Positions 1,857-12,636 of a stretch of 33,253 bases of DNA are shown in pieces (position 1 is the first letter of the stretch; each line of letters begins with the position of its first letter). The notes below the pieces were generated by a model. That model had not been told where the DNA came from, made no database searches, and saw only the letters and a program-made list of their open reading frames with translations. The DNA comes from Alphaproteobacteria bacterium (GTDB taxonomy: Bacteria; Pseudomonadota; Alphaproteobacteria; Rhizobiales; Hyphomicrobiaceae). Where the stretch lies: positions 1-33,253 of the forward strand of contig JAJRZC010000018.1 in the NCBI GenBank assembly GCA_024275435.1, written 5' to 3'. The translations under genes and the position numbers were made by a program.

Positions 1857-2040
1857 GGTGTTTTACCTTGTTTTGAGTTGGGTCGGCTGCTGCTAATTGA
1901 ATAATCCGCTACGCGCGTGGGTTCAAGGTGTTGGGCTCTATTGTGTGCTTGATAACAGGGCACTTTATTTTGATATTTGACAGGGAGTCGTGACGAAATG
2001 ATGCGAGAGGATGATGAGGTGAGTTTTGGGGCAGAATAAT

Positions 2041-2481
2041 GTGCCGTTTTGGGAGTCAAAGACACTTGAGGAGATGTCTTCCAAGGAATGGGAATCGCTT
2101 TGTGACGGCTGCGGTCGTTGCTGTTTGCTGAAGATTGAAGACTGGGACACAAGCGAAGTGTTTCTGACGCGCCTGTCTTGTCATCTGCTAGATAAAGAAA
2201 CGTGCCGGTGTCGTGATTACCCCAATAGACACAAGGTGGTAGAGGATTGTGTTTCCATCAGCCCTAAAAAGGTGCGTTCGCTTTCATGGCTGCCTGAGAG
2301 TTGTGCATATCGGCGTGTGGATGACGGCAGAGGGTTAGCCTGGTGGCATCCACTGTTATCGGGGTCCAGCAAAACTGTTTTTGAGGCGGGTATTTCCGTG
2401 CAGGGATGGGCGCGATGTGAGAGCACTGTGGCGCCTGATGATTTTCATCGCTATATCATCAATGATTTTGACGCTGATTGA
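2041..2481 (+). CDS. YcgN/UPF0260-family cysteine-cluster protein
   Basis: A small cytoplasmic protein of about 146 residues. The N-terminus has the family hallmark CDGCGRCC, with cysteines near 21, 24, 27 and 28, followed by CRCRDYPNR and a further Cys. This matches the zinc- or iron-binding CxxCxxCC cluster family that includes E. coli YcgN; the biochemical role is unknown. The open frame reaches back to a TTG at 2026 just after an in-frame TGA. I prefer the GTG at 2041 because it gives an N-terminus ([12 protein letters not shown]) like that of relatives, although the upstream GGGG is a weak ribosome site. It is divergent from the penicillin-binding protein, with 184 bases between the two starts. 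Confidence 0.85.
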
Positions 2482-2628: not shown

Positions 2629-2657
2629 TTGACACCGTTGCGGTGTTATTGTATAAA
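2629..2657 (+). promoter_or_regulatory. Near-consensus sigma70 promoter
   Basis: TTGACA (2629-2634), a 17-base spacer, then TATAAA (2652-2657), in an AT-rich stretch between the YcgN-like gene and the TerS-like gene. The -35 is a perfect match, the -10 matches five of six bases, and the spacing is ideal. Transcription would start near 2664 and run into the phage/GTA relic. It is read from sequence only. Confidence 0.65.
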
Positions 2658-2737
2658 TTTGTTATTGCTGGAAATGGGCTCAAGTGTTGCTGAAACTTGC
2701 TCCGGCTATTCTTCAAAATTATGGATGTTTTTGCTGC

Positions 2738-3346
2738 ATGTCCGTCGATGACGCGGCCTGGGGTGAGATACGCCGTTGCTATGTTGATGGTCGAGAGACT
2801 GTTGCTGATATAGCTGCGCGTTTTGGCGTATCCGTCGGGGCAATTCGCTATCGGGTGCGTCGTGATGGATGGTCACGGAGCGTTTCGCGCTCCGGATCGT
2901 CCAAGTGGAGCGGTGCCGGTGAGGGTGAAACCAAGAAACATGACAAGCGCGTAGATGCTGGGAAAAGGGTGCTGCGCCGGAACAGGAAGACCAAGCGGGC
3001 TCAGACGTTAATCGAGGATCCGCTTGCTGCACGTGAAGAAGTGGTTGGGCGGCTTTATCGGGCGATTTTGATGAAGCTGGAGGATCTGGAGGTGAGGATG
3101 GAACAGGGGCAGGATCTTAGTGCTGCAGACAGCGAAAGAGAAACGCGAGAGTTGAGCACCATGGTTCGGAGTTTTGAGAAAGTGACGGGGGTCGCCGCTG
3201 ACATCGCCAAAGAACGAAAACCAAAAGCTGGAGCACGGGCAACCGTCACGGCCGATGCGGAGCGCATGCGCGTTGAGATTGCGGAACGTCTTGAGCGTCT
3301 CCATTCGCAATGGGACCTTGAAGGACGATCTGGCCAGTCTGGGTGA
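2738..3346 (+). CDS. TerS-like DNA-packaging protein with N-terminal HTH (phage/GTA relic)
   Basis: About 202 residues. The N-terminus carries a helix-turn-helix typical of small terminase or Mu-type DNA-binding proteins, with TVADIAARFGVSVGAIRYRV at roughly residues 22-41. A basic, low-complexity linker follows, then a long charged, probably coiled-coil helical region from about 95 onward. A small terminase subunit recognises DNA and recruits the large subunit. The identification rests mainly on this architecture and on the large terminase directly downstream. The frame opens at a TTG at 2684; I chose the ATG at 2738 (MSVDDAAWGEIRR) because the HTH follows at the usual distance. The ribosome site is poor. 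The 3' end overlaps the next gene in another frame. It could also be an orphan HTH protein. Confidence 0.6.
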   Translation: MSVDDAAWGEIRRCYVDGRETVADIAARFGVSVGAIRYRVRRDGWSRSVSRSGSSKWSGAGEGETKKHDKRVDAGKRVLRRNRKTKRAQTLIEDPLAAREEVVGRLYRAILMKLEDLEVRMEQGQDLSAADSERETRELSTMVRSFEKVTGVAADIAKERKPKAGARATVTADAERMRVEIAERLERLHSQWDLEGRSGQSG

Positions 3347-4340
3347 GGCTGCTCTTTCAGCCTTGCTGAAAGATTGGCAGGTTTGGGCGCGTGATGATCA
3401 ACTTCCACCTCGCTTTACTCAAGCGGGCCAACCTTGGCGAACGTGGTTGATTTTAGGCGGACGTGGTGCCGGTAAGACGCGTGCGGGAGCTGAATGGATC
3501 AAGGCCAAAGCTTTAGGGTTGGAGCCAATAGCTTCTCAACCCGTCCGGCGGATTGCTTTGGTAGGAGAAACCATGGCCGAAGTCCGCCATGTGATGGTGG
3601 AGGGGCAATCTGGTTTATTGGCGGTTCATTGTGAAAAGGAGCGACCAAAATTTGAACCTTCCAAGGGCGTTGTTGTTTGGAAGAACGGTACAGTCGCGCA
3701 GTTGTTTTCTGCTGAAAATGCCGAGGGTTTGCGAGGGCCGCAATTTGAGGTGGCTTGGTGCGATGAGATTGCGAAATGGCGTCAAGGTGAACTTGCCTGG
3801 GACATGCTTCAGTTTGGCTTGAGGCTTGGGCATTGTCCGCAGCTTGTGGCTACGACGACACCAAGACCTGTGCCACTGCTAAAGCGGATTCTAGCGGATC
3901 CGATGAGTGTTGTCAGTAAAGCAGCCACTGAAATGAACGCGTGTAATCTTGCTCCCAGTTTTGTTTCAGAGGTGAAAAGGCGCTACGAGGGAACGGTACT
4001 TGGCAGGCAGGAATTGCAAGGTGAGATTATTGAAGATCAAAGCGGGAGCTTATGGCGTCGAGACTGGATTGAGAGTGCCCGCGTTGAGTGTGCTGCTGAT
4101 TTGAAAACTATTGTTGTGGGTGTAGACCCACCGGTGAGCGCCACGGAGCGTTCAGATGCTTGCGGAATAGTTGTGGCCGGTTGCGGCGATGATGGACAGG
4201 TTTTTGTGCTGGCGGACCGGACGGTTCAGGGACGTGAGCCCAATGTATGGGCGCGTGCGGCGGTTCGAGCCTATCACGAATTTGAAGCCGATCGGATTGT
4301 TGCTGAGATCAATCAGGGGGGTGACTGTCAATTCCTATGA
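3255..4340 (+). pseudogene. Large terminase (GTA/phage TerL), truncated in nuclease domain
   Basis: The ATPase-nuclease motor that packages DNA into capsids. Visible are Walker A GGRGAGKT at 68-75, Walker B WCDE with Asp170-Glu171, the ATTTPRPVPLLKRI coupling region, and the start of the RNase H-like nuclease with Asp291 in VGVDPP. It closely resembles RcGTA-type terminases. After the conserved AEINQGGD segment the frame runs into CQFL and a stop at 4338-4340, so only 361 residues remain, against roughly 420-460 usually. The rest of the nuclease domain, including later metal-binding acidic residues, is missing, so packaging activity is unlikely. ATG 3255 overlaps the TerS-like gene by 92 bases; a TTG at 3318 is an alternative start. 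No portal, protease or capsid gene follows. Confidence 0.85.
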
Positions 4341-4380
4341 ACGTTCACGACTGCTTGGGTTGCGCTGGGCGTCCTCTTCT

Positions 4381-5259
4381 ATGGGTGTGAGCAAGGAAGA
4401 TCGTTCCAGTGGAGCGTTATTTCAGCATGCTTTGAAGCATGTTCTCGAGATGGAAGGCGGTTATACGAATGATCCTGTTGATCCGGGTGGGCCGACGAAC
4501 AAGGGTATTACACTTGGTGTATTTGCTGCTTGGCGCAAGGTTGTTTTGAATGGAAAGACGCGTGCAAAGCTGTTAGCACAACTGAAAAAAATCCCAGATT
4601 CCACAGTGTCTGAAATCTATAAGAAGCGCTATTGGGACAAGGCTTTATGTGAGGCGTTTCCTTCTGGTATCGCGTTTATGCATTTTGATACGGCGGTTAA
4701 TCATGGTGTTGGCACAGCTGTTCGAATGCTACAGCAGGTCGTTGGTGTGGCGGTGGATGGCGAGGTGGGCCCCAATACGCGCCGTGCTGTGAATTCCCAA
4801 TCAGAAGATGAAATCTTGAAAACTTATGCGGACATTCGGCGGGCGCGGTATCGCTCGTTGAAACATTTTTGGCGATTTGGGCGGGGGTGGTTGCGTCGTG
4901 TGGATGTCACGCTTGAGCGGGCGCGTGAATTGGTTGGGAAGTCTGAGAAAAATGGTTCTGGTAAGAGGAGTAACGATATGATGGTGTCACGGAATCAAAC
5001 TGGTGTGGGTCAATCAAAATGGTGGGGTCAGTCTGTTACGATCTGGGGTGCATTGGTAACGGCTGCTGCCACAGTGGTGCCAGTACTTGGTCCTTTGGTG
5101 GGGATTGAAATTGGAGCTGATACTGTGCGCCAGATTGGAGCTGAGACTTTTACAGCTGTGCAAGCGGTTGTTGGACTTGCTGGAACTGCAATGACCATAT
5201 TTGGGCGTATTCGTGCCACGCAGACCTTGGAGCAGCGTTCTGTTTCACTGAAAATCTAG
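4381..5259 (+). CDS. GH108 endolysin with C-terminal holin-like membrane domain
   Basis: A 292-residue protein. The N-terminal part is a glycoside hydrolase 108 lysozyme (N-acetylmuramidase) with the catalytic EGGYTNDPVDPGGPTNKGIT segment, Glu25 being the likely acid. A C-terminal lobe, VGVAVDGEVGPNTRRAV, resembles PG_binding_3. After a polar linker near 190-205 comes a tail with two hydrophobic stretches, WGALVTAAATVVPVLGPLVG and a second ending MTIFGRIRATQ, similar to small phage holin-like proteins that carry a TIWG...YGR(V/I)KA pattern. The enzyme would cleave peptidoglycan and the tail would sit in the membrane. The start is probably ATG 4381, though its ribosome site is weak; the frame extends upstream into sequence overlapping the terminase. 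The lysozyme lies only 40 bases past the truncated terminase stop. Confidence 0.8.
   Translation: MGVSKEDRSSGALFQHALKHVLEMEGGYTNDPVDPGGPTNKGITLGVFAAWRKVVLNGKTRAKLLAQLKKIPDSTVSEIYKKRYWDKALCEAFPSGIAFMHFDTAVNHGVGTAVRMLQQVVGVAVDGEVGPNTRRAVNSQSEDEILKTYADIRRARYRSLKHFWRFGRGWLRRVDVTLERARELVGKSEKNGSGKRSNDMMVSRNQTGVGQSKWWGQSVTIWGALVTAAATVVPVLGPLVGIEIGADTVRQIGAETFTAVQAVVGLAGTAMTIFGRIRATQTLEQRSVSLKI
4978..5259 (+). CDS. Possible internally initiated holin-like protein nested in the endolysin gene
   Basis: Inside the endolysin frame, an ATG at 4978 (residue 200) is preceded by AGAGGAG at 4964-4970 with seven bases of spacing, a better ribosome site than that of the full-length gene. Initiation here would give a 93-residue protein of two hydrophobic segments and a basic end, which is the size and layout of a stand-alone phage holin-like protein. 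Either two formerly separate genes have fused in frame, or both products are made from one frame. Translation from this site is an inference. Confidence 0.4.
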   Translation: MMVSRNQTGVGQSKWWGQSVTIWGALVTAAATVVPVLGPLVGIEIGADTVRQIGAETFTAVQAVVGLAGTAMTIFGRIRATQTLEQRSVSLKI

Positions 5260-5493
5260 GGTTTTGATTTTATCTCTGGAGGTCTGGCGTGTTTTTCCAG
5301 GAAAGATGAAACGCGTGATCCATTTTTGGAAACTATAGCTTTGAGATTGCACATGCTTGGCGGGTTTCATCGGGTCTTTGAATGTTTGGAGAGGGAACAA
5401 CTCAGACATTGCTGTTCATGGGCTATTCAGATGGTGGGAGCTATAAGATGAGTTGGTTTGAGGGGTGTCAAACTCGTTAGGAATCGTCGTTTC
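5260..5493 (+). other. Intergenic region between phage relic and PepSY-like gene
   Basis: About 230 bases with no convincing gene, RNA or strong hairpin. AGGAA at 5479-5483 is the likely ribosome site for the next gene. An in-frame TTG at 5458 extends that gene's frame, but a start there would bury the signal peptide. Confidence 0.5.
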
Positions 5494-5820
5494 ATGACAT
5501 TTAGGCTTTTGAGAAGTGGCTCATTTTTTGTGCTTTTGGCTGTCTTGCTGATGGCTCCAGCTCAAAATGCTTCGGCTGATACGCTTCCACGATGCTATGA
5601 AGATTGGTCTGTTGGTTCCACCATTGTAAAGGAACATGGGTTGGTTTCCGTGGAAGAGCTGATATCGCGTGCTAAAACCGTCCTTGCCGGCAAAATTGTA
5701 AAAACCACGCTGTGCAACACCAAAGATGGCTATGCATATCTGGTTGTGATGCGTACGAAAGAAGGGCAATTGAAAACTCTCTCGATTGATGCGCTTGAGC
5801 CGTTCACCACGCGTCCATAA
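5494..5820 (+). CDS. Small secreted PepSY-like protein, possible FeuN counterpart
   Basis: 108 residues with a clear Sec signal peptide: basic MTFRLLRSG, hydrophobic FFVLLAVLLMAP, then a likely cleavage after NASA near residue 28. The mature part is about 80 residues with two cysteines that could pair, and a C-terminal segment GYAYLVVMRTKEGQLKTLSI resembling a PepSY repeat. ATG 5494 has AGGAA ten bases upstream; an upstream TTG at 5458 would place extra residues before the signal. It sits directly before a FeuP/FeuQ-like pair. In Sinorhizobium meliloti the gene before feuPQ, feuN, encodes a small periplasmic inhibitor of FeuQ. The shared position, size and secretion suggest the same role here, but I did not compare sequences, so this is inference. 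Confidence 0.65.
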   Translation: MTFRLLRSGSFFVLLAVLLMAPAQNASADTLPRCYEDWSVGSTIVKEHGLVSVEELISRAKTVLAGKIVKTTLCNTKDGYAYLVVMRTKEGQLKTLSIDALEPFTTRP

Positions 5821-5998: not shown

Positions 5999-6685
5999 TT
6001 GCGTGTTCTCGTTGTTGAAGATGATCAAGATTTAAATCGGCAGCTGGTCACGGTGCTTTCTGATGCTGGCTATGCGGTGGATACCGCTCTTGATGGCGAA
6101 GAAGGTTACTTTCTGGGTGATACCGAGCCTTATGATTTGGTGGTGCTGGATCTTGGTCTGCCGAAGATGGATGGACTTTCAATCCTTGAGCAATGGCGTC
6201 GATCTGAACGGAATATGCCCGTTATCATTCTTACAGCACGAGACCGTTGGAGTGATAAGGTTGCGGGGATCGATGCAGGAGCCGATGATTATCTCGCGAA
6301 GCCATTTCACATGGAAGAATTATTGGCGCGTGCTCGGGCCCAGATGCGACGGGCAAGCGGACATGCCAAGAGTGAACTTGTTTGTGGGGCTGTGCGTCTG
6401 GATACGAATTCCGCGAGAGTTACGTGCGATGGGCAACCTGTGAAACTGACTTCACATGAATATCGCTTGCTTTCTTATTTGATGCATCACAATGACAGGG
6501 TTGTTTCACGCACAGAGCTTGTTGAACATCTTTATGATCAGGATTTTGATCGTGACTCGAATACCATTGAAGTCTTTGTGGGCCGCTTGCGTAAGAAGTT
6601 GCCGAGCGACTTAATCGAGACCGTTCGTGGGCTTGGATATCGGATGAACTCGCACCAGGAAAAAGAGAAGCAGGGTGGAGATTGA
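5999..6685 (+). CDS. feuP: OmpR-family response regulator, FeuP-like
   Basis: 228 residues. The N-terminal receiver domain has the acidic pair Asp8-Asp9, phosphoacceptor Asp51 in VVLDLGLPKMDG, the Thr of ILTARDRWSDK and the conserved Lys of LAKPF. The C-terminal winged-helix domain contains LTSHEYRLLSYLMHH, then DRDSNTIEVFVGRLRKKL and the terminal ETVRGLGYRM. The DRWSDKVAGIDAGADDY and LYDQDFDRDSNTIEVF stretches match what I remember of rhizobial FeuP, which controls cyclic glucan export in Sinorhizobium. The start is a TTG at 5999, with GAGG seven bases upstream; no in-frame ATG would preserve the first beta-strand. The stop overlaps the kinase start by one base. The symbol is a family-level assignment. 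Confidence 0.9.
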   Translation: MRVLVVEDDQDLNRQLVTVLSDAGYAVDTALDGEEGYFLGDTEPYDLVVLDLGLPKMDGLSILEQWRRSERNMPVIILTARDRWSDKVAGIDAGADDYLAKPFHMEELLARARAQMRRASGHAKSELVCGAVRLDTNSARVTCDGQPVKLTSHEYRLLSYLMHHNDRVVSRTELVEHLYDQDFDRDSNTIEVFVGRLRKKLPSDLIETVRGLGYRMNSHQEKEKQGGD

Positions 6686-8070
6686 TGCGGGTTAATTCCC
6701 TTGCATTTCGTCTGCTTCTTACGTCTGCGATATGGACGTTGCTGGTGCTTCCTATAGCCGGTGTGCTGATCTATTCCCTTTATCGCAATGATGTCCAAGC
6801 TACGTTCGATAATCAGTTGCGCAAACTCGTATTGGCAATACGTATCGACAGTTTGTATGCCGGGTCAAACCAGCCGATTGTGCCTCCGAACCGCTATGAG
6901 CCGTTGTTTGAAGTCACGCATTCCGGGTGGTACTGGCAGATCAAGCCGTTGGAGGGTGGAGAAGGGAGAACGCTTGTTTCAGCGTCTCTTGCCACCGCCA
7001 CCCTAGCCTCACCCAAGCAATTAAACTATCCCGCTGATAAGTCGGGAGCCCGGTGGATGAATGGCCAGGGGCCACTGGGTGAACCGGTACGGATTGTTGA
7101 AGTCATTGACAAACTTCAAACTGGGGAAGAAGGGGCACCTTCATACTCAATTATTGTGGCTGGCCCTTTGGAATGGTTTGAAGATGGGGTCGCCAAATTC
7201 AGGAACCGATTGACAATATTTCTTGCACTTGCGGGGCTTGGCCTTGTGATTGCAACCTTGCTTCAGATCAGATTTGGTTTGGCGCCATTACGCAAAATTG
7301 AACAAGGGCTTGCGCGCGTGCGCTCCGGCAAGGCTGTGAAGTTGGAAGGTACGTTTCCAGCTGAAATTGAGTCGCTACAGATAGAACTCAATGCGCTGAT
7401 TGAATCCAACCAAAGTATTATTGATCGTGCGCGTACACAGGTTGGGAATCTCGCTCACGCGCTAAAAACACCTCTTGCTGTGATCACCAATGAGACTCGC
7501 GATACTAGCGGAGCGGTTGGTGATAAGATCAGTGAACAGGCAGAGCTTATGCGTTCTCAAATTTCCCACTACCTTGACCGGGCTCGTATTGCTGCACGTG
7601 TTGATGTGATTGGGCGGGTTACAAAAGTTTATGATGTCATGGAGCCACTGGTGCGTGCGCTGGAGCGTATACACATGGACAAGGCTGTTTCTATTCATAT
7701 TGATTGCCCTGAAGATCTGAGTTTTCAAGGTGAGAAACAGGACCTTGAAGAGATGCTTGGTAATCTTTTGGATAATGCCTGCAAATGGGCGTCGCGAAAT
7801 GTCTATTTGAAGGTTGTCTTGTTGTCGGTGGGCGACCAACGTTCTATGCGGCAGATATGTATCTCGGTAGAGGATGATGGGCCTGGATTAACCAAGGAAG
7901 AGCGTGAGAAAATCTGTCAGCGTGGGCTTCGACTTGATGAGAGCAAACCGGGGTCTGGACTGGGGCTTTCGATCGTATCTGATCTAGCTCAGTCTTATCG
8001 GGGCCGTTTTGAACTGGATAGCTCTGCTCATGGCGGGTTGCTGGCCAAGCTTATTTTGCCCAGCATTTAA
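6685..8070 (+). CDS. feuQ: Membrane sensor histidine kinase, FeuQ-like
   Basis: 461 residues. TM1 is near residues 7-30, a periplasmic sensor of about 140 residues includes HSGWYWQIKPL, and TM2 is at roughly 176-196. A HAMP-like linker follows, then the dimerisation helix with His258 in LAHALKTPLAVI. The ATPase domain has an N-box in LGNLLDNACKWA, a G1 box DDGPGL and a G2 box GSGLGLS, so it looks fully active. It is most like PhoQ/FeuQ-type kinases. The start ATG overlaps the regulator stop (TGATG) and has a GGTGGAG ribosome site, pointing to translational coupling with the upstream regulator. The preceding TTG at 6682 is in frame but less likely. Confidence 0.9.
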   Translation: MRVNSLAFRLLLTSAIWTLLVLPIAGVLIYSLYRNDVQATFDNQLRKLVLAIRIDSLYAGSNQPIVPPNRYEPLFEVTHSGWYWQIKPLEGGEGRTLVSASLATATLASPKQLNYPADKSGARWMNGQGPLGEPVRIVEVIDKLQTGEEGAPSYSIIVAGPLEWFEDGVAKFRNRLTIFLALAGLGLVIATLLQIRFGLAPLRKIEQGLARVRSGKAVKLEGTFPAEIESLQIELNALIESNQSIIDRARTQVGNLAHALKTPLAVITNETRDTSGAVGDKISEQAELMRSQISHYLDRARIAARVDVIGRVTKVYDVMEPLVRALERIHMDKAVSIHIDCPEDLSFQGEKQDLEEMLGNLLDNACKWASRNVYLKVVLLSVGDQRSMRQICISVEDDGPGLTKEEREKICQRGLRLDESKPGSGLGLSIVSDLAQSYRGRFELDSSAHGGLLAKLILPSI

Positions 8071-8268
8071 GCCCATTTTTCAAGATTTGAGATATGTTTT
8101 AGCGTTTGATTTAGGGGGAGGTCGAACTTTTGCCCGAATCCGGCTGGTAAAGGTCAATGTAGATCAACGCCGACATACTCAGCGTAGAGATAATATCTGT
8201 TCTTTTGGGTATGTATGAACTGGGCCGTGCCTATTGGCTCTGACCCTCAGAAAACAATGAGGACTACC

Positions 8269-8739
8269 ATGAATAAGTCGCGGCTCGTCGTTATCGCTGC
8301 GTTACCATTGATGCTTGCTGGGTGTGGCCCTGATGGTGCTTCCAAGGCTGATACAGGGACGCTTGTGGGTGCAGTTGCCGGAGGTATCATAGGCAATCAG
8401 GTGGGAAATGGTACTGGGCGCGTTCTTGCGACGGTTGCAGGGGCGTTCATTGGTGGTGTTGTTGGGCACTCCATTGGTCAGTCTATGGATGAGCAAGACC
8501 GCATATTAGCTCAGCGCGCTGAGTATGCAGCTTTGGAAGAGGGGCAGTCGGGACGTTCTATTCCGTGGCGCAATCCTGATAACGGTCATTATGGTGAAGT
8601 TATCCCAAGTCGGCCTTATAAACGCGAGGGGCGCCAATGCCGTGATTTTACACACACGGTATATATTGGGGGAGAACCGCAAACCATGAAGGGGCGCGCT
8701 TGCCGCAATCCCGATGGAACCTGGCGAAAAATTGCTTAA
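8269..8739 (+). CDS. Glycine-zipper outer-membrane lipoprotein (17 kDa surface-antigen type)
   Basis: 156 residues. The lipoprotein signal ends in LMLAGC, with Cys20 the lipidation site. Next is a glycine-zipper hairpin, TLVGAVAGGIIGNQVGNG and VAGAFIGGVVGHSIGQSMDE, as in the Rickettsia 17 kDa antigen and related envelope lipoproteins. The C-terminal domain ends with RQCRDFTHTVYIGG and GRACRNPDGTWRKI, a common surface-antigen tail with two cysteines. I chose ATG 8269, with GAGGA five bases upstream, because the upstream in-frame ATG at 8215 would put 18 extra residues before the signal. A structural role in the outer membrane is likely; the exact function is unknown. It stands alone between feuQ-like and the ccm operon. 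Confidence 0.85.
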   Translation: MNKSRLVVIAALPLMLAGCGPDGASKADTGTLVGAVAGGIIGNQVGNGTGRVLATVAGAFIGGVVGHSIGQSMDEQDRILAQRAEYAALEEGQSGRSIPWRNPDNGHYGEVIPSRPYKREGRQCRDFTHTVYIGGEPQTMKGRACRNPDGTWRKIA

Positions 8740-8788
8740 AGCCTGCGACATTTGGTAGATAGTTGGTGTCTAGCCTTGTGTTAGCCTT

Positions 8789-8817
8789 TTGACACACTTA
8801 TTCCATGTCTTGAATTA
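8789..8817 (+). promoter_or_regulatory. Candidate promoter for the ccm operon
   Basis: A perfect -35 hexamer TTGACA at 8789-8794, 38 bases before the ccmI start. The base run 17 bases later, GAATTA at 8812-8817, is a poor -10, so the element is uncertain. It fits the expectation that the ccm genes start their own transcript. Confidence 0.3.
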
Positions 8818-8832
8818 GGACTTGGATATCAA

Positions 8833-10029
8833 ATGATCCTTTGGGTTTTTTTCGCTGTTCTTACAGCTTTGGTGGTCGGCACTATCTTGATGCCGTTGTC
8901 ACGTGATCGCGGTCGCTCCGAGGACACGAGCGATGGCTCCTATGATCTGACCGTTTACCGGGATCAACTCTCTGAAATTGAACATGACCGTGAACGCGGG
9001 CTCGTGAGTGCCGAGGCGGCGGAAGCATCGCGTGCTGAACTGGCTCAGCGAATATTTCATCATGTTGATGTTCGCTCTGGAGAAGTGGGTGGGGCGGATA
9101 AACTTGGCCAGACTTTCGGAGTTGGGGGCGCTCCTCGTGAAGGGGTTGATGTTCGACGTTTGGTTTTGGCGATTGGCGCTTTTCTTCCCTTGATGAGTGT
9201 TGGACTTTATGTTGCGATTGGTTCTCCGGGTGTGCCGGGGAAGCCATTTGTCGCAAGTGTTGTTAAGTCTCCTGAACAATCTGATGTTGAAAAACTTGTC
9301 GGACAAGTGGAAGCGCGATTGCGTGAGAAGCCACTGGATGGGCGAGGTTGGGATGTTCTCGCTCCCGTTTACGCGCGGCTTGGAATGTTTGAAGATGCGC
9401 GTGTCGCTTACGGGCGAGCTTTGGCGCTGCTTGGGCCTTCCAAAGAACGGCTGCTTGGTTTGGGGCGAACAGCTATTCGAGCAAGTGATGGGATTGTTAC
9501 TGATGAAGCGCAGTTGGCGTTTGAGCAGTACCTTGAACTCGATCCAAGTGACCTTGAAGCGCGGCTCTGGTTGGCACGTGCAAAAGAGCAAGGTGGCGAT
9601 ATTAAAGGCGCTATTGCCGCGTTTGAGGAAATGCTGGCCAGTTCAAAAAAAGATGCCAAGTGGCGTACTATGATTGAAGAGCGGATCGCCAAGTTGCGTT
9701 CTAGTTTAAATGGCGCTGGTGTACCTGATTCAGGAAATAAAACTGAAGATTCACGCGTTGTGGATGGGGCGTCTGCTGTTTCGGAGATGAGCGAGGAGCA
9801 AAAAGCGAAGTTTATCTCAAATATGGTAGAAAGGCTGGCTACTCGTTTATCCAAAGATGGTGGTTCAGATTTTGATGGTTGGACCCGGTTGGTGCACGCT
9901 TATGTGGTGCTGGGTCGAACCGAGGAAGCCAAGAAGGCGCTTGCTGATGCTCGCGCACGATTTGGTGATGATGAGGTCCGCGCTAAGGACCTTGATGCTT
10001 TGGCAAAAAAATATGAATTGGGTTCTTAA
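8833..10029 (+). CDS. ccmI: Cytochrome c biogenesis protein CcmI (CycH)
   Basis: 398 residues. CcmI chaperones apocytochrome c and hands it to the CcmF/CcmH haem ligase. The N-terminal helix ILWVFFAVLTALVVGTIL is followed by a cytosolic leucine-zipper-like segment with YRDQLSEIEHDRERGLVSA, a family signature. A second helix, LVLAIGAFLPLMSVGLYVAIG, lies near residues 110-132. The rest is periplasmic TPR repeats, with RGWDVLAPVYARLGMFEDA and the related DGWTRLVHAYVVLGRTEEA near the C-terminus. It is first in the ccmI-ccmE-ccmF-ccmH order seen in rhizobial cycHJKL operons. The full length is present. Confidence 0.95.
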   Translation: MILWVFFAVLTALVVGTILMPLSRDRGRSEDTSDGSYDLTVYRDQLSEIEHDRERGLVSAEAAEASRAELAQRIFHHVDVRSGEVGGADKLGQTFGVGGAPREGVDVRRLVLAIGAFLPLMSVGLYVAIGSPGVPGKPFVASVVKSPEQSDVEKLVGQVEARLREKPLDGRGWDVLAPVYARLGMFEDARVAYGRALALLGPSKERLLGLGRTAIRASDGIVTDEAQLAFEQYLELDPSDLEARLWLARAKEQGGDIKGAIAAFEEMLASSKKDAKWRTMIEERIAKLRSSLNGAGVPDSGNKTEDSRVVDGASAVSEMSEEQKAKFISNMVERLATRLSKDGGSDFDGWTRLVHAYVVLGRTEEAKKALADARARFGDDEVRAKDLDALAKKYELGS

Positions 10030-10156
10030 AACCTGACCCGTCTATTACAGTGATTGCCTGGAAGCATGTGGTCTAGGGGTTGGATTTCAGGCAAGCATTT
10101 CATGTTTGTGCTGGCTTTACGACGAAGACTGAGATGACTTAGGATATGGAGAAGTC

Positions 10157-10615
10157 ATGACGCGGAAACAACGACGCGGATTTTTAATTGGAGCTGGTGT
10201 TGTTGTGCTGAGTATCGCAGGGATACTGGTCGGGTTTGCGCTCAAGGACACCATTGTTTTTTTCTATACACCCAGCGATGTCTTGAGCAAGAATATCGAG
10301 CCTGGCAAGCGTTTGCGTCTTGGTGGGCTTGTTGCTGAAGATTCCGTGAAACGTGGTGAAGGGACCCTTGTTGAATTTGCGGTGACAGATACGATTCACA
10401 CGATATCGGTCCGCTACAATAAGCTGTTGCCCGATCTGTTTCGTGAGGGGCAGGGCGTTGTTGCTGAAGGAATTCTTGATGAAAAAGGTGTGCTTGTCGC
10501 CGACACAGTGCTGGCCAAGCATGATGAGAATTATATGCCCCCGGAAGTTGCGTCTGCGCTCAAGGAAAAAGGCGTGAAACTCGGCAAAGGTGCGGTTCAC
10601 AAATCGGCCCCGTAG
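10157..10615 (+). CDS. ccmE: Cytochrome c maturation haem chaperone CcmE (CycJ)
   Basis: 152 residues, a normal family length. The N-terminus is basic (MTRKQRRG) with one membrane anchor, FLIGAGVVVLSIAGILVGFAL. The periplasmic OB-fold domain has LRLGGLVAEDSVKRGEG and VVAEGILDEKGVLVADTVL. The covalent haem-binding motif HxxxY is intact, with His122 and Tyr126 in AKHDENYMPPE. CcmE receives haem from the CcmABCD complex and passes it to CcmF. ATG 10157 follows GGAG closely. It lies 128 bases after ccmI and 38 before ccmF, so it is probably in one operon. Confidence 0.96.
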   Translation: MTRKQRRGFLIGAGVVVLSIAGILVGFALKDTIVFFYTPSDVLSKNIEPGKRLRLGGLVAEDSVKRGEGTLVEFAVTDTIHTISVRYNKLLPDLFREGQGVVAEGILDEKGVLVADTVLAKHDENYMPPEVASALKEKGVKLGKGAVHKSAP

Positions 10616-10653
10616 AGCGGGATGTATGCGGTAAGCAAAAAGGACGCTTTAGG

Positions 10654-12636
10654 GTGATAGTTGAAGTTGGACATTTTGCATTGGTGTTGGGTGTGGTTGT
10701 TGCGCTGGTGCAGATGATCATACCCTTGTGGGGTGCGCAAATCGGTAATACGCGCATGATGGAGGTTGCAAAACCTGCCGCGATTATGCAATTTCTTTTA
10801 CTGTTAATCGCTTTTTTGGCCTTGATGTATGCCTATGTGGTTTCTGATTTTTCTGTTTTGAATGTTGTTCAAAACTCGCATTCTGCCAAACCCCTGATCT
10901 ACCGAATTGCAGGTGTGTGGGGTAACCATGAAGGTTCCATGCTGCTGTGGGTTTTGGTGCTTGCACTTTTCGGCGCAGCGGTTGCGGTTTATGGCGAGAA
11001 TTTGCGTCCCACACTTCGTGCCAATGTGTTGGCGGTTCAAGCGTCAATCGTGGTGGCATTTGGTCTGTTCATTCTTTTAACGTCTAACCCGTTCATTCGA
11101 ATGATTCCGGCGGCTCTTGAGGGGCGCGGTTTGAACCCCATTTTGCAAGACCCGGCCTTGGCGTTTCATCCGCCGTTTCTCTACATAGGGTATGTCGGTT
11201 TCTCGATGGCATTTTCGTTTGCGGTGGCCGCCCTCATTGATGGGCGGATCGATGCGGTTTGGGCACGCTGGGTGCGTCCGTGGACTTTGGCTGCATGGAT
11301 GTTTTTGACCATCGGTATCGCCATGGGGTCTTGGTGGGCTTATTATGAGCTTGGCTGGGGCGGCTGGTGGTTTTGGGATCCTGTGGAGAATGCTTCGTTC
11401 ATGCCCTGGCTTGCAGGAACGGCGCTATTGCACTGCGCGCTTGTTATGGAGAAGCGAGAGGCTCTTAAAGTCTGGACGATACTGCTGGCTATCTTGACGT
11501 TCTCATTGTCTCTCATGGGTGCATTTCTCGTGCGCTCGGGCGTGCTGACTTCCGTTCATTCTTTCGCGGTTGATCCGGAACGCGGCGTGGTCATTCTAGG
11601 GATCATGGTGTTGTTTATCGGCGGCTCACTGAGTCTGTTTGCCTATCGTGTTTCTTCTTTGCGGCAAGGCGGGCTATTTTCGCCAATCAGCCGTGAGGGC
11701 AGTCTTGTTCTCAATAACGTTCTGCTTACAACGGCCACTGCCACGGTGCTGGTTGGCACGCTTTATCCGCTGGTTCTTGAAACCTTTACGGGTTTGAAAA
11801 TTTCTGTAGGCGCACCGTATTTCAATCTGACGTTTGGTCCTTTGATGATACCGTTGTTGCTTGCGATGCCCTTTGGGCCGCTTCTCGCCTGGAAGCGGGG
11901 TGATATTGTTGGTGTCGGGCAACGATTGATTTTTGCCTGTCTCGTTTTTGTTGTCGTTGCGGCCGCGGCTTATGCCTATTATTATCGCGGTCCAGTCATG
12001 GCACCTTTTGGACTTGCTCTAGGGGCTTTTGTCATGGCCGGTGCGATCACCGAATTTGCCGTGCGGGTGAAAGTTGGCAGAGCGTCCTTTGAGGAAGTTG
12101 CCCGCAGAACCTGGAATCAACCTCGATCCGCATGGGGAAGTGCGTTGTCGCATTTTGGGGTTGGTCTGATGGTTGTCGGAATCGTGGCCACATCGGCTTA
12201 CCAGGAAGAAAAGATCCTGGTTTTGAAGCCCGGTGAAGAAACGAAGATCGCTGGCTATACTGTTAAATTCCGTGGGGAAGCACCCAGACATGGCGCCAAC
12301 TATCGTGAGCAGGTCGGTGTTTTAGATGTTATGCGGAACGGTTCACAAGTGATCCGTTTGTATCCGGGCAAACGCTCTTATACAGCTCCGGTACAAGTGA
12401 CGAGTGAAGCTGGCATCTATGCCTCGTGGGCGGGAGACCTGTATACAATATTAGGTGACCGTCAAAAGAATGGTGGTTTCACATTCCGGATGTATTACAA
12501 TCCATTGGTACGGTTTATCTGGTTTGGAGCGTTGGTTATGTTCTTTGGAGGGGCCATATCGTTAAGTGATCGCAGACTGCGTTTTGGAGCGCCAGTGCGA
12601 TCTCGTCGACGGTCCGCTCAGGTTCCTGCAGAGTGA
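10654..12636 (+). CDS. ccmF: Cytochrome c haem lyase subunit CcmF (CycK)
   Basis: 660 residues with many membrane helices. It holds the WWD haem-handling motif, WGGWWFWDPVENASFMPW at 235-252, and conserved His-bearing loops such as NSHSAKPLIYRIAGVWGNHE and LVRSGVLTSVHSFA. CcmF takes haem from holo-CcmE, reduces it and attaches it to CxxCH of apocytochromes together with CcmH. The start is a GTG at 10654 with AAGGA nine bases upstream, giving MIVEVGHFALVLG. The stop is followed within ten bases by the ccmH start, so the two are translationally linked. No disruption is visible. Confidence 0.97.
   Translation: MIVEVGHFALVLGVVVALVQMIIPLWGAQIGNTRMMEVAKPAAIMQFLLLLIAFLALMYAYVVSDFSVLNVVQNSHSAKPLIYRIAGVWGNHEGSMLLWVLVLALFGAAVAVYGENLRPTLRANVLAVQASIVVAFGLFILLTSNPFIRMIPAALEGRGLNPILQDPALAFHPPFLYIGYVGFSMAFSFAVAALIDGRIDAVWARWVRPWTLAAWMFLTIGIAMGSWWAYYELGWGGWWFWDPVENASFMPWLAGTALLHCALVMEKREALKVWTILLAILTFSLSLMGAFLVRSGVLTSVHSFAVDPERGVVILGIMVLFIGGSLSLFAYRVSSLRQGGLFSPISREGSLVLNNVLLTTATATVLVGTLYPLVLETFTGLKISVGAPYFNLTFGPLMIPLLLAMPFGPLLAWKRGDIVGVGQRLIFACLVFVVVAAAAYAYYYRGPVMAPFGLALGAFVMAGAITEFAVRVKVGRASFEEVARRTWNQPRSAWGSALSHFGVGLMVVGIVATSAYQEEKILVLKPGEETKIAGYTVKFRGEAPRHGANYREQVGVLDVMRNGSQVIRLYPGKRSYTAPVQVTSEAGIYASWAGDLYTILGDRQKNGGFTFRMYYNPLVRFIWFGALVMFFGGAISLSDRRLRFGAPVRSRRRSAQVPAE

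Follow-up and report, generated by a model that had tools for sequence, protein, structure and literature searches.

Gene transfer agents (GTAs) are domesticated viruses that ship host DNA between cells. Clusters of the RcGTA-like kind (type I, Rhodogtaviriformidae) are known from many Hyphomicrobiales (PMC9662315). A published criterion for a GTA is the presence of 14 of the 17 head-tail genes, and pseudogenised and completely lost clusters have been described in multiple lineages, where they may represent cheaters (PMC10883770). According to modelling, non-producers should take over from GTA producers (PMC6209664). The locus analyzed here resembles the pseudogenised alphaproteobacterial clusters in that the particle genes have been lost and remnants left. 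It differs from the published cases in that the exact junctions have been mapped, and that identical junctions appear to recur independently. GTA loss is already known; of the recurrence of the same junctions we found no description in the literature searched, most subscription journals lying outside its scope.

The window is one whole contig (C232) of 33,253 b; the draft genome to which it belongs totals 3.56 Mb over 424 contigs and is 94.5% complete with 4.5% contamination. A search of named genomes for the lysin family shows that its relatives are Hyphomicrobiaceae, comprising Hyphomicrobium, Filomicrobium and uncultured members. In a tree of the histidine kinase, CcmE and CcmF the window adjoins the clade of Filomicrobium insigne (G064) on a long branch, its exact position being unsure. 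The same site in G020, a single-contig genome, is occupied by terS, terL, portal, protease, capsid, g6-g15 and lysin in canonical RcGTA order, and in at least a dozen relatives an intact 14-kb cluster lies between the same flanking genes as those of the window. The arrangement of ycgN to the left of the cluster and orf120, response regulator, histidine kinase and ccmIEF to its right is found in many Hyphomicrobiaceae, and largely so in certain genomes from elsewhere in the order.

All the features described here lie on the forward strand of the window. The left flank of the GTA site is a ycgN-like CxxCxxCC protein at 2026..2481 (Pfam CxxCxxCC, E 8e-9), which has 53-61% identity to the ycgN found directly upstream of terS in intact relatives. 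To the right is orf120, a small exported protein at 5458..5820 that is located 3′ of the lysin in most relatives (29-45% identity), followed at 5999..12636 by the response regulator, histidine kinase, glycine-zipper protein, ccmI, ccmE and ccmF, in the same order as downstream of the relatives' cluster. Between these flanks the window retains terS and terL at the left end and the lysin at the right end, each orthologous to the corresponding cluster gene of the relatives. On the evidence of position and gene order the locus is an orthologue of the RcGTA-like cluster. In contrast to that cluster it lacks the genes from portal to g15, which are absent both from the site and from the genome, so that most of the head-tail genes are missing and it is a relic and not a functional GTA. 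Particles packaging host DNA would not be expected in the absence of capsid and portal.

The preliminary description had treated the choice between GTA and prophage as a matter of inference. It can now be decided in favor of a GTA, because the relatives have the canonical RcGTA gene order, the cluster occupies one conserved site and its sequence divergence tracks that of the host. An ordinary prophage that integrated at the site and left a remnant might account for the genes seen, since terminases and GH108 lysins occur in phages too, and the phage collection has terminases, all of them distant, that match the one in the window at 48-52% identity at best. Yet the site and gene order are common across the family. 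No integrase, replication or lysogeny genes are found among the listed open reading frames of the window or in the G020 cluster. We therefore regard a prophage origin as extremely unlikely.

The left end of the GTA locus begins with a sigma-70-like promoter, TTGACA-N17-TATAAA, at 2629..2657, which matches 11 of the 12 consensus positions and had been noted before as near-consensus. The TTGACA element and 17-nt spacer are present upstream of terS in most relatives, so this promoter is conserved in the family. The intact terS (2684..3346, a g1-like small terminase whose true start may be later) had been described as TerS-like with a helix-turn-helix; it matches the small terminase subunit PHROG_1206 (E 3e-6), and is 25-43% identical to the terS in the same place in the relatives. 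The terL gene (g2), of which the genome has a single copy, runs from 3255 to 4340, and its amino-acid identity to the terL of the intact clusters is about 57-68%. Profile search and alignment with the terL of the relatives show that it comprises codons 1-357 of about 461, followed by CQFL and a stop. Beyond NQGGD (codon 357, base 4325) there is no further homology to intact terL, and the stop codon lies at 4338-4340; the abrupt change of sequence reported earlier at about 4325 was thus exactly placed. Terminase_6N is complete (E 1e-33), while Terminase_6C is matched only over positions 1-67 of 155. The ATPase domain is therefore whole but the nuclease domain is cut, with more than half of Terminase_6C gone; the last ~100 residues of TerL, including the SPDRVDALVWAL stretch, are missing. 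A headful large terminase such as RcGTA g2 has both the ATPase and the RNase H-like nuclease domains whole, unlike that of the window.

The right end is a GH108 muramidase remnant at 4321..5259, with possible starts at GTG 4321 or ATG 4381. It consists of GH108 (Glyco_hydro_108, PF05838, E 6e-26), PG_binding_3 and a holin-like C-terminus, in agreement with its original recognition as a GH108 endolysin behind the terminase, and the family-invariant EGG of the MEGG motif is present. In Hyphomicrobiaceae the endolysin follows g15 within the cluster, whereas the endolysin and holin genes of Rhodobacter capsulatus lie outside the main cluster (PMC6209664). In the relatives the lysin gene has about 124 more codons at its 5′ end and opens with a TIGR02594 domain (residues 6-138 of the 430 in G020), and many of these lysins match that of the window from the junction onward. 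The window lysin is thus truncated, with loss of its TIGR02594 domain and normal start. The surviving lysis gene had been portrayed as open, well formed and perhaps still under selection. The frame is indeed open; the gene is not of full length, and a recent deletion explains an open frame equally well.

The catalytic part is shared with the holin-associated N-acetylmuramidase family NF040573 (E 4e-19), but the score of 69 bits is under the family cutoff of 240, and here GH108 is preceded by TIGR02594 in the relatives and fused to the holin-like end. Similarity of the C-terminus to Phage_holin_1 is weak and below cutoff. There is an in-frame internal start for this module at ATG 4978 (4978..5259), preceded by AGGAG at 4966-4970. 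A Shine-Dalgarno sequence of at least 5 nt with an ATG before the holin-like module is found in 50 of 62 lysin genes of the family, compared with 8 of 996 control windows taken from those genes. The 3-contig genome G007, whose main cluster has been reduced to half of g15 plus the lysin, encodes a second GH108 lysin (G007:C1:198729-200183), which has a TIGR02594-like part.

The homology to the lysin begins at base ~4321 (VTVNSYERSRLLGLRW) and that to terL ends at 4325, placing the breakpoint inside both genes. With both sides aligned to the relatives, the deletion junction can be assigned to 4320..4325, where the two sides share GGTGAC, at most 5-6 nt. The join reads GGGGGGTGACTGTC, in which GGTGAC can be assigned to terL (GGT GAC) and GTGAC to the lysin (GTG ACT). 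The right side follows the lysin from V-[ST]-V (residue ~124 in G020), a motif situated about five residues beyond the point where the NQ of LLGGNQ begins. The two frames differ at the join, so that it is out of frame and there is no fusion protein. Missing between these points are the rest of terL, portal, protease, capsid, g6-g15 and the first ~124 codons of the lysin, about 13.3 kb; the same two points are separated by 13,262 b in G064 and 13,432 b in G088, the nearest intact relatives. Both sides of the join are homologous to separated parts of one intact cluster, with nothing between them.

The remainder of the cluster is also absent elsewhere in the genome. A 2,802-residue concatenate of the C-terminal part of TerL, portal, protease, capsid and g6-g14 gave no match in the genome of the window, and neither did a 1,460-residue concatenate of g15 and the N-terminal part of the lysin; as a control, the former gave 12-13 pieces in each of G035, G015 and G017. 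A skip by the assembler over the middle of an intact cluster might be suspected given the 424 contigs and 4.5% contamination, and G034, a second compact locus, is likewise in a fragmented draft. This is very improbable, because 5-6 nt is far below any usual k-mer and too short for k-mer collapse, and no other contig carries the structural genes. Moreover, comparable deletions are found in G125, a 4.6-Mb single-contig genome, in G061 on a 1.48-Mb contig and in G080 on a 0.97-Mb contig. Both the missing structural genes and the internal deletion fusing the two ends of a cluster, as first suggested, are borne out, the latter by synteny with the intact 14-kb clusters between the same flanking genes. 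The comparison shows, at the level of sequence, one internal deletion with complete loss of the particle genes.

We conclude that the locus is very probably an RcGTA-like (type I) orthologue inactivated by a single internal deletion of ~13.3 kb, most likely a recent and non-functional remnant. Illegitimate recombination at the 5-6 nt match would have joined terL codon 357 to lysin codon ~124. Particle making would have been lost with portal, capsid and tail, and with the end of the terminase nuclease domain, converting a producer lineage into a non-producer. The conserved promoter could still express TerS and the ATPase fragment of the terminase; reinitiation at GTG 4321 or ATG 4381 may yield the muramidase, and a holin-like product may come from its own ribosome site before ATG 4978. 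Recombination between very short repeats, recency and lack of function are what we infer here. In trees of the same taxa, the ratio of the window's gene branch to its flank-gene branch is 1.11 for terL (other taxa: median 1.39, range 0.61-2.26) and 1.48 for the lysin (median 2.05, range 1.52-4.44). The window departs from the other taxa at 2 of the 110 terL columns and 2 of the 73 lysin columns that are invariant in them. With no excess of branch length and few departures there is no sign of long neutral drift, which suggests a recent deletion or else constraint on the remnants. Selection on the remnant would also fit the intact frames of its terS, terL and lysin.

How general is GTA loss in this family? 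Our census was anchored on the flanking histidine kinase, present in 95 of 103 genomes of the family, to avoid counting only genomes that keep the lysin. Up to 20 kb upstream of each kinase was read, and a deletion was counted if both sides of the join were in one contig; a relic is recognized only if an end remains. Including the window, 16 of the 95 anchored genomes have internal deletions, with 13 distinct junctions. Those with a breakpoint in terL are terL357/lys124 in the window, terL~318/lysin start (G034), terL~181/lys~49 (G061, G085 and G080), terL75/g15-1284 (G075), terL311/g15-243 (G121), terL210/g15-633 (G124) and terL118/portal327 (G018). The others are terS/g15-1025 (G004), terS/lys389 (G103), ycgN/g15-1197 (G069), portal317/lys166 (G092 and G125), portal317/g15-757 (G091) and, in G014, both portal130/g6-28 and g8/g15-858. 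The carriers are placed on separate branches of the flank-gene tree, among intact clusters, showing on these trees that GTA deletions have occurred repeatedly and independently in the family.

Ten genomes lack any GTA gene at the site. In G019, G060, G072 and G082 none is found beside the response regulator, histidine kinase and ccm genes, and cluster genes are present elsewhere in the genome, which suggests that the cluster has changed position there. Searches with the cluster genes found none in G031, either at the site or elsewhere. Three very close species differ in state, G104 being intact, G121 having a terL-g15 deletion and G125 a portal-lysin deletion. This suggests fast turnover of GTA loci with loss in progress, and the three would show the predicted passage from producer to non-producer under way. 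The Hyphomicrobiaceae thus offer a natural set for measuring the rate and place of GTA loss, and whether the ends are kept.

Two breakpoints are shared between genomes. In G061, G085 and G080 the terL codons for FDAAWCD, by position the Walker B region, are joined in frame to the lysin sequence VAWCAAF. The terL~181/lys~49 join occurs at GC(C/G)TGGTG(C/T)G, which is common to both genes, and the resulting fusions (G061/L118, G080/L123 and G085/L119) are single frames of 567-573 codons. The fusion loci of Hyphomicrobium sp. LHD-15, NDB2Meth4 and RBC040 have the N-terminal part of terL and the lysin at the same chromosomal site as the window and carry this join, in frame at the Ala-Trp-Cys codon run, whereas the window is joined at other points and out of frame. 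In G092, G125 and G091 the portal is left at PGDNT(Y/F), in frame.

The flank-gene tree does not group carriers of one junction as sisters, and each of their terL, portal and lysin segments is closest, or equally close, to that of their own kin. For these reasons the shared junctions most likely arose independently, as judged from the trees, the terL-lysin join three times and the portal-lysin join twice, in frame. Horizontal spread of the two shared-junction alleles was considered and rejected, both sides of the join being closest to their own kin and not to the other carriers. A single ancestral deletion is also unlikely, as intact clusters separate the carriers of the same junction on the flank-gene tree. 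Nor is the repeat at the terL-lysin join the longest in the cluster; it is ~10 nt, and each cluster has 59-85 spanning repeats of at least 10 nt. Since the AWC repeat is one of dozens that span the cluster, chance alone is a weak explanation, and the shared joins point either to a recombination preference or to selection for particular products.

In-frame junctions number 10 of 16 (P = 0.016), or 7 of 13 when shared junctions are collapsed (P = 0.10), so that the excess is suggestive at best. It bears on two adaptive readings. One is that the GTA clusters of Hyphomicrobiaceae have time and again been reduced, frequently in frame and with a preference for certain points, to compact loci in which the GTA promoter, TerS, a portion of the terminase and the muramidase-holin unit survive; such loci would be favored as non-producer (cheater) or lysis-only alleles, rather than being products of passive decay. 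We consider this unlikely. The other, in our judgment improbable, is that selection maintains the compact locus as a means of lysis, some of the cells using the GTA promoter to express the muramidase and the holin-like protein while making no particles. Such a lysis role would fit the retention, by our count, of an intact GH108 domain in 14 of about 20 deletion events and of the holin-like end in all the recognized ones, the in-frame terL-lysin fusions of G061, G080 and G085 that keep the lysin translated, the in-frame excess above and the lack of relaxed evolution in the window. However, the fusion of the window is out of frame and has lost the lysin start, and in G092 and G125 the deletion has removed the EGG catalytic motif of GH108 while sparing the holin-like end, with a further frameshift in G092. 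Only lysin fragments are kept in G103, G109, G068 and G001, and the retention of ends is itself a condition for a relic to be recognized in the survey. Inactivation by deletion, leaving a non-functional remnant, thus remains the reading that we prefer for the window.

Some of the intact clusters have a further elaboration of the portal gene. In L199 (G116), L202 (G118), L236 (G094), L230 (G081), L220 (G063) and L196 (G111) there are arrays between the portal and protease genes. Past a motif resembling YREDQPRVPAG..GG.WTD the portal carries an extension at its C-terminus that varies, and orphan cassettes follow in which the portal 3′ end is repeated with different C-terminal modules and small immunity-like open reading frames. 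The extension is a CdiA-CT RNase A toxin domain in G118 (PF18431, E 5e-17) and a CdiA_C domain in G094 (PF18451, E 2e-7), and similar small open reading frames (36% identity) lie 3′ of the RNase A-like modules of G118 and G111. Judged by sequence, the GTA portal here seems to carry a polymorphic toxin-immunity array, in a parallel to the MuF toxins of temperate phages (PMC5576092).
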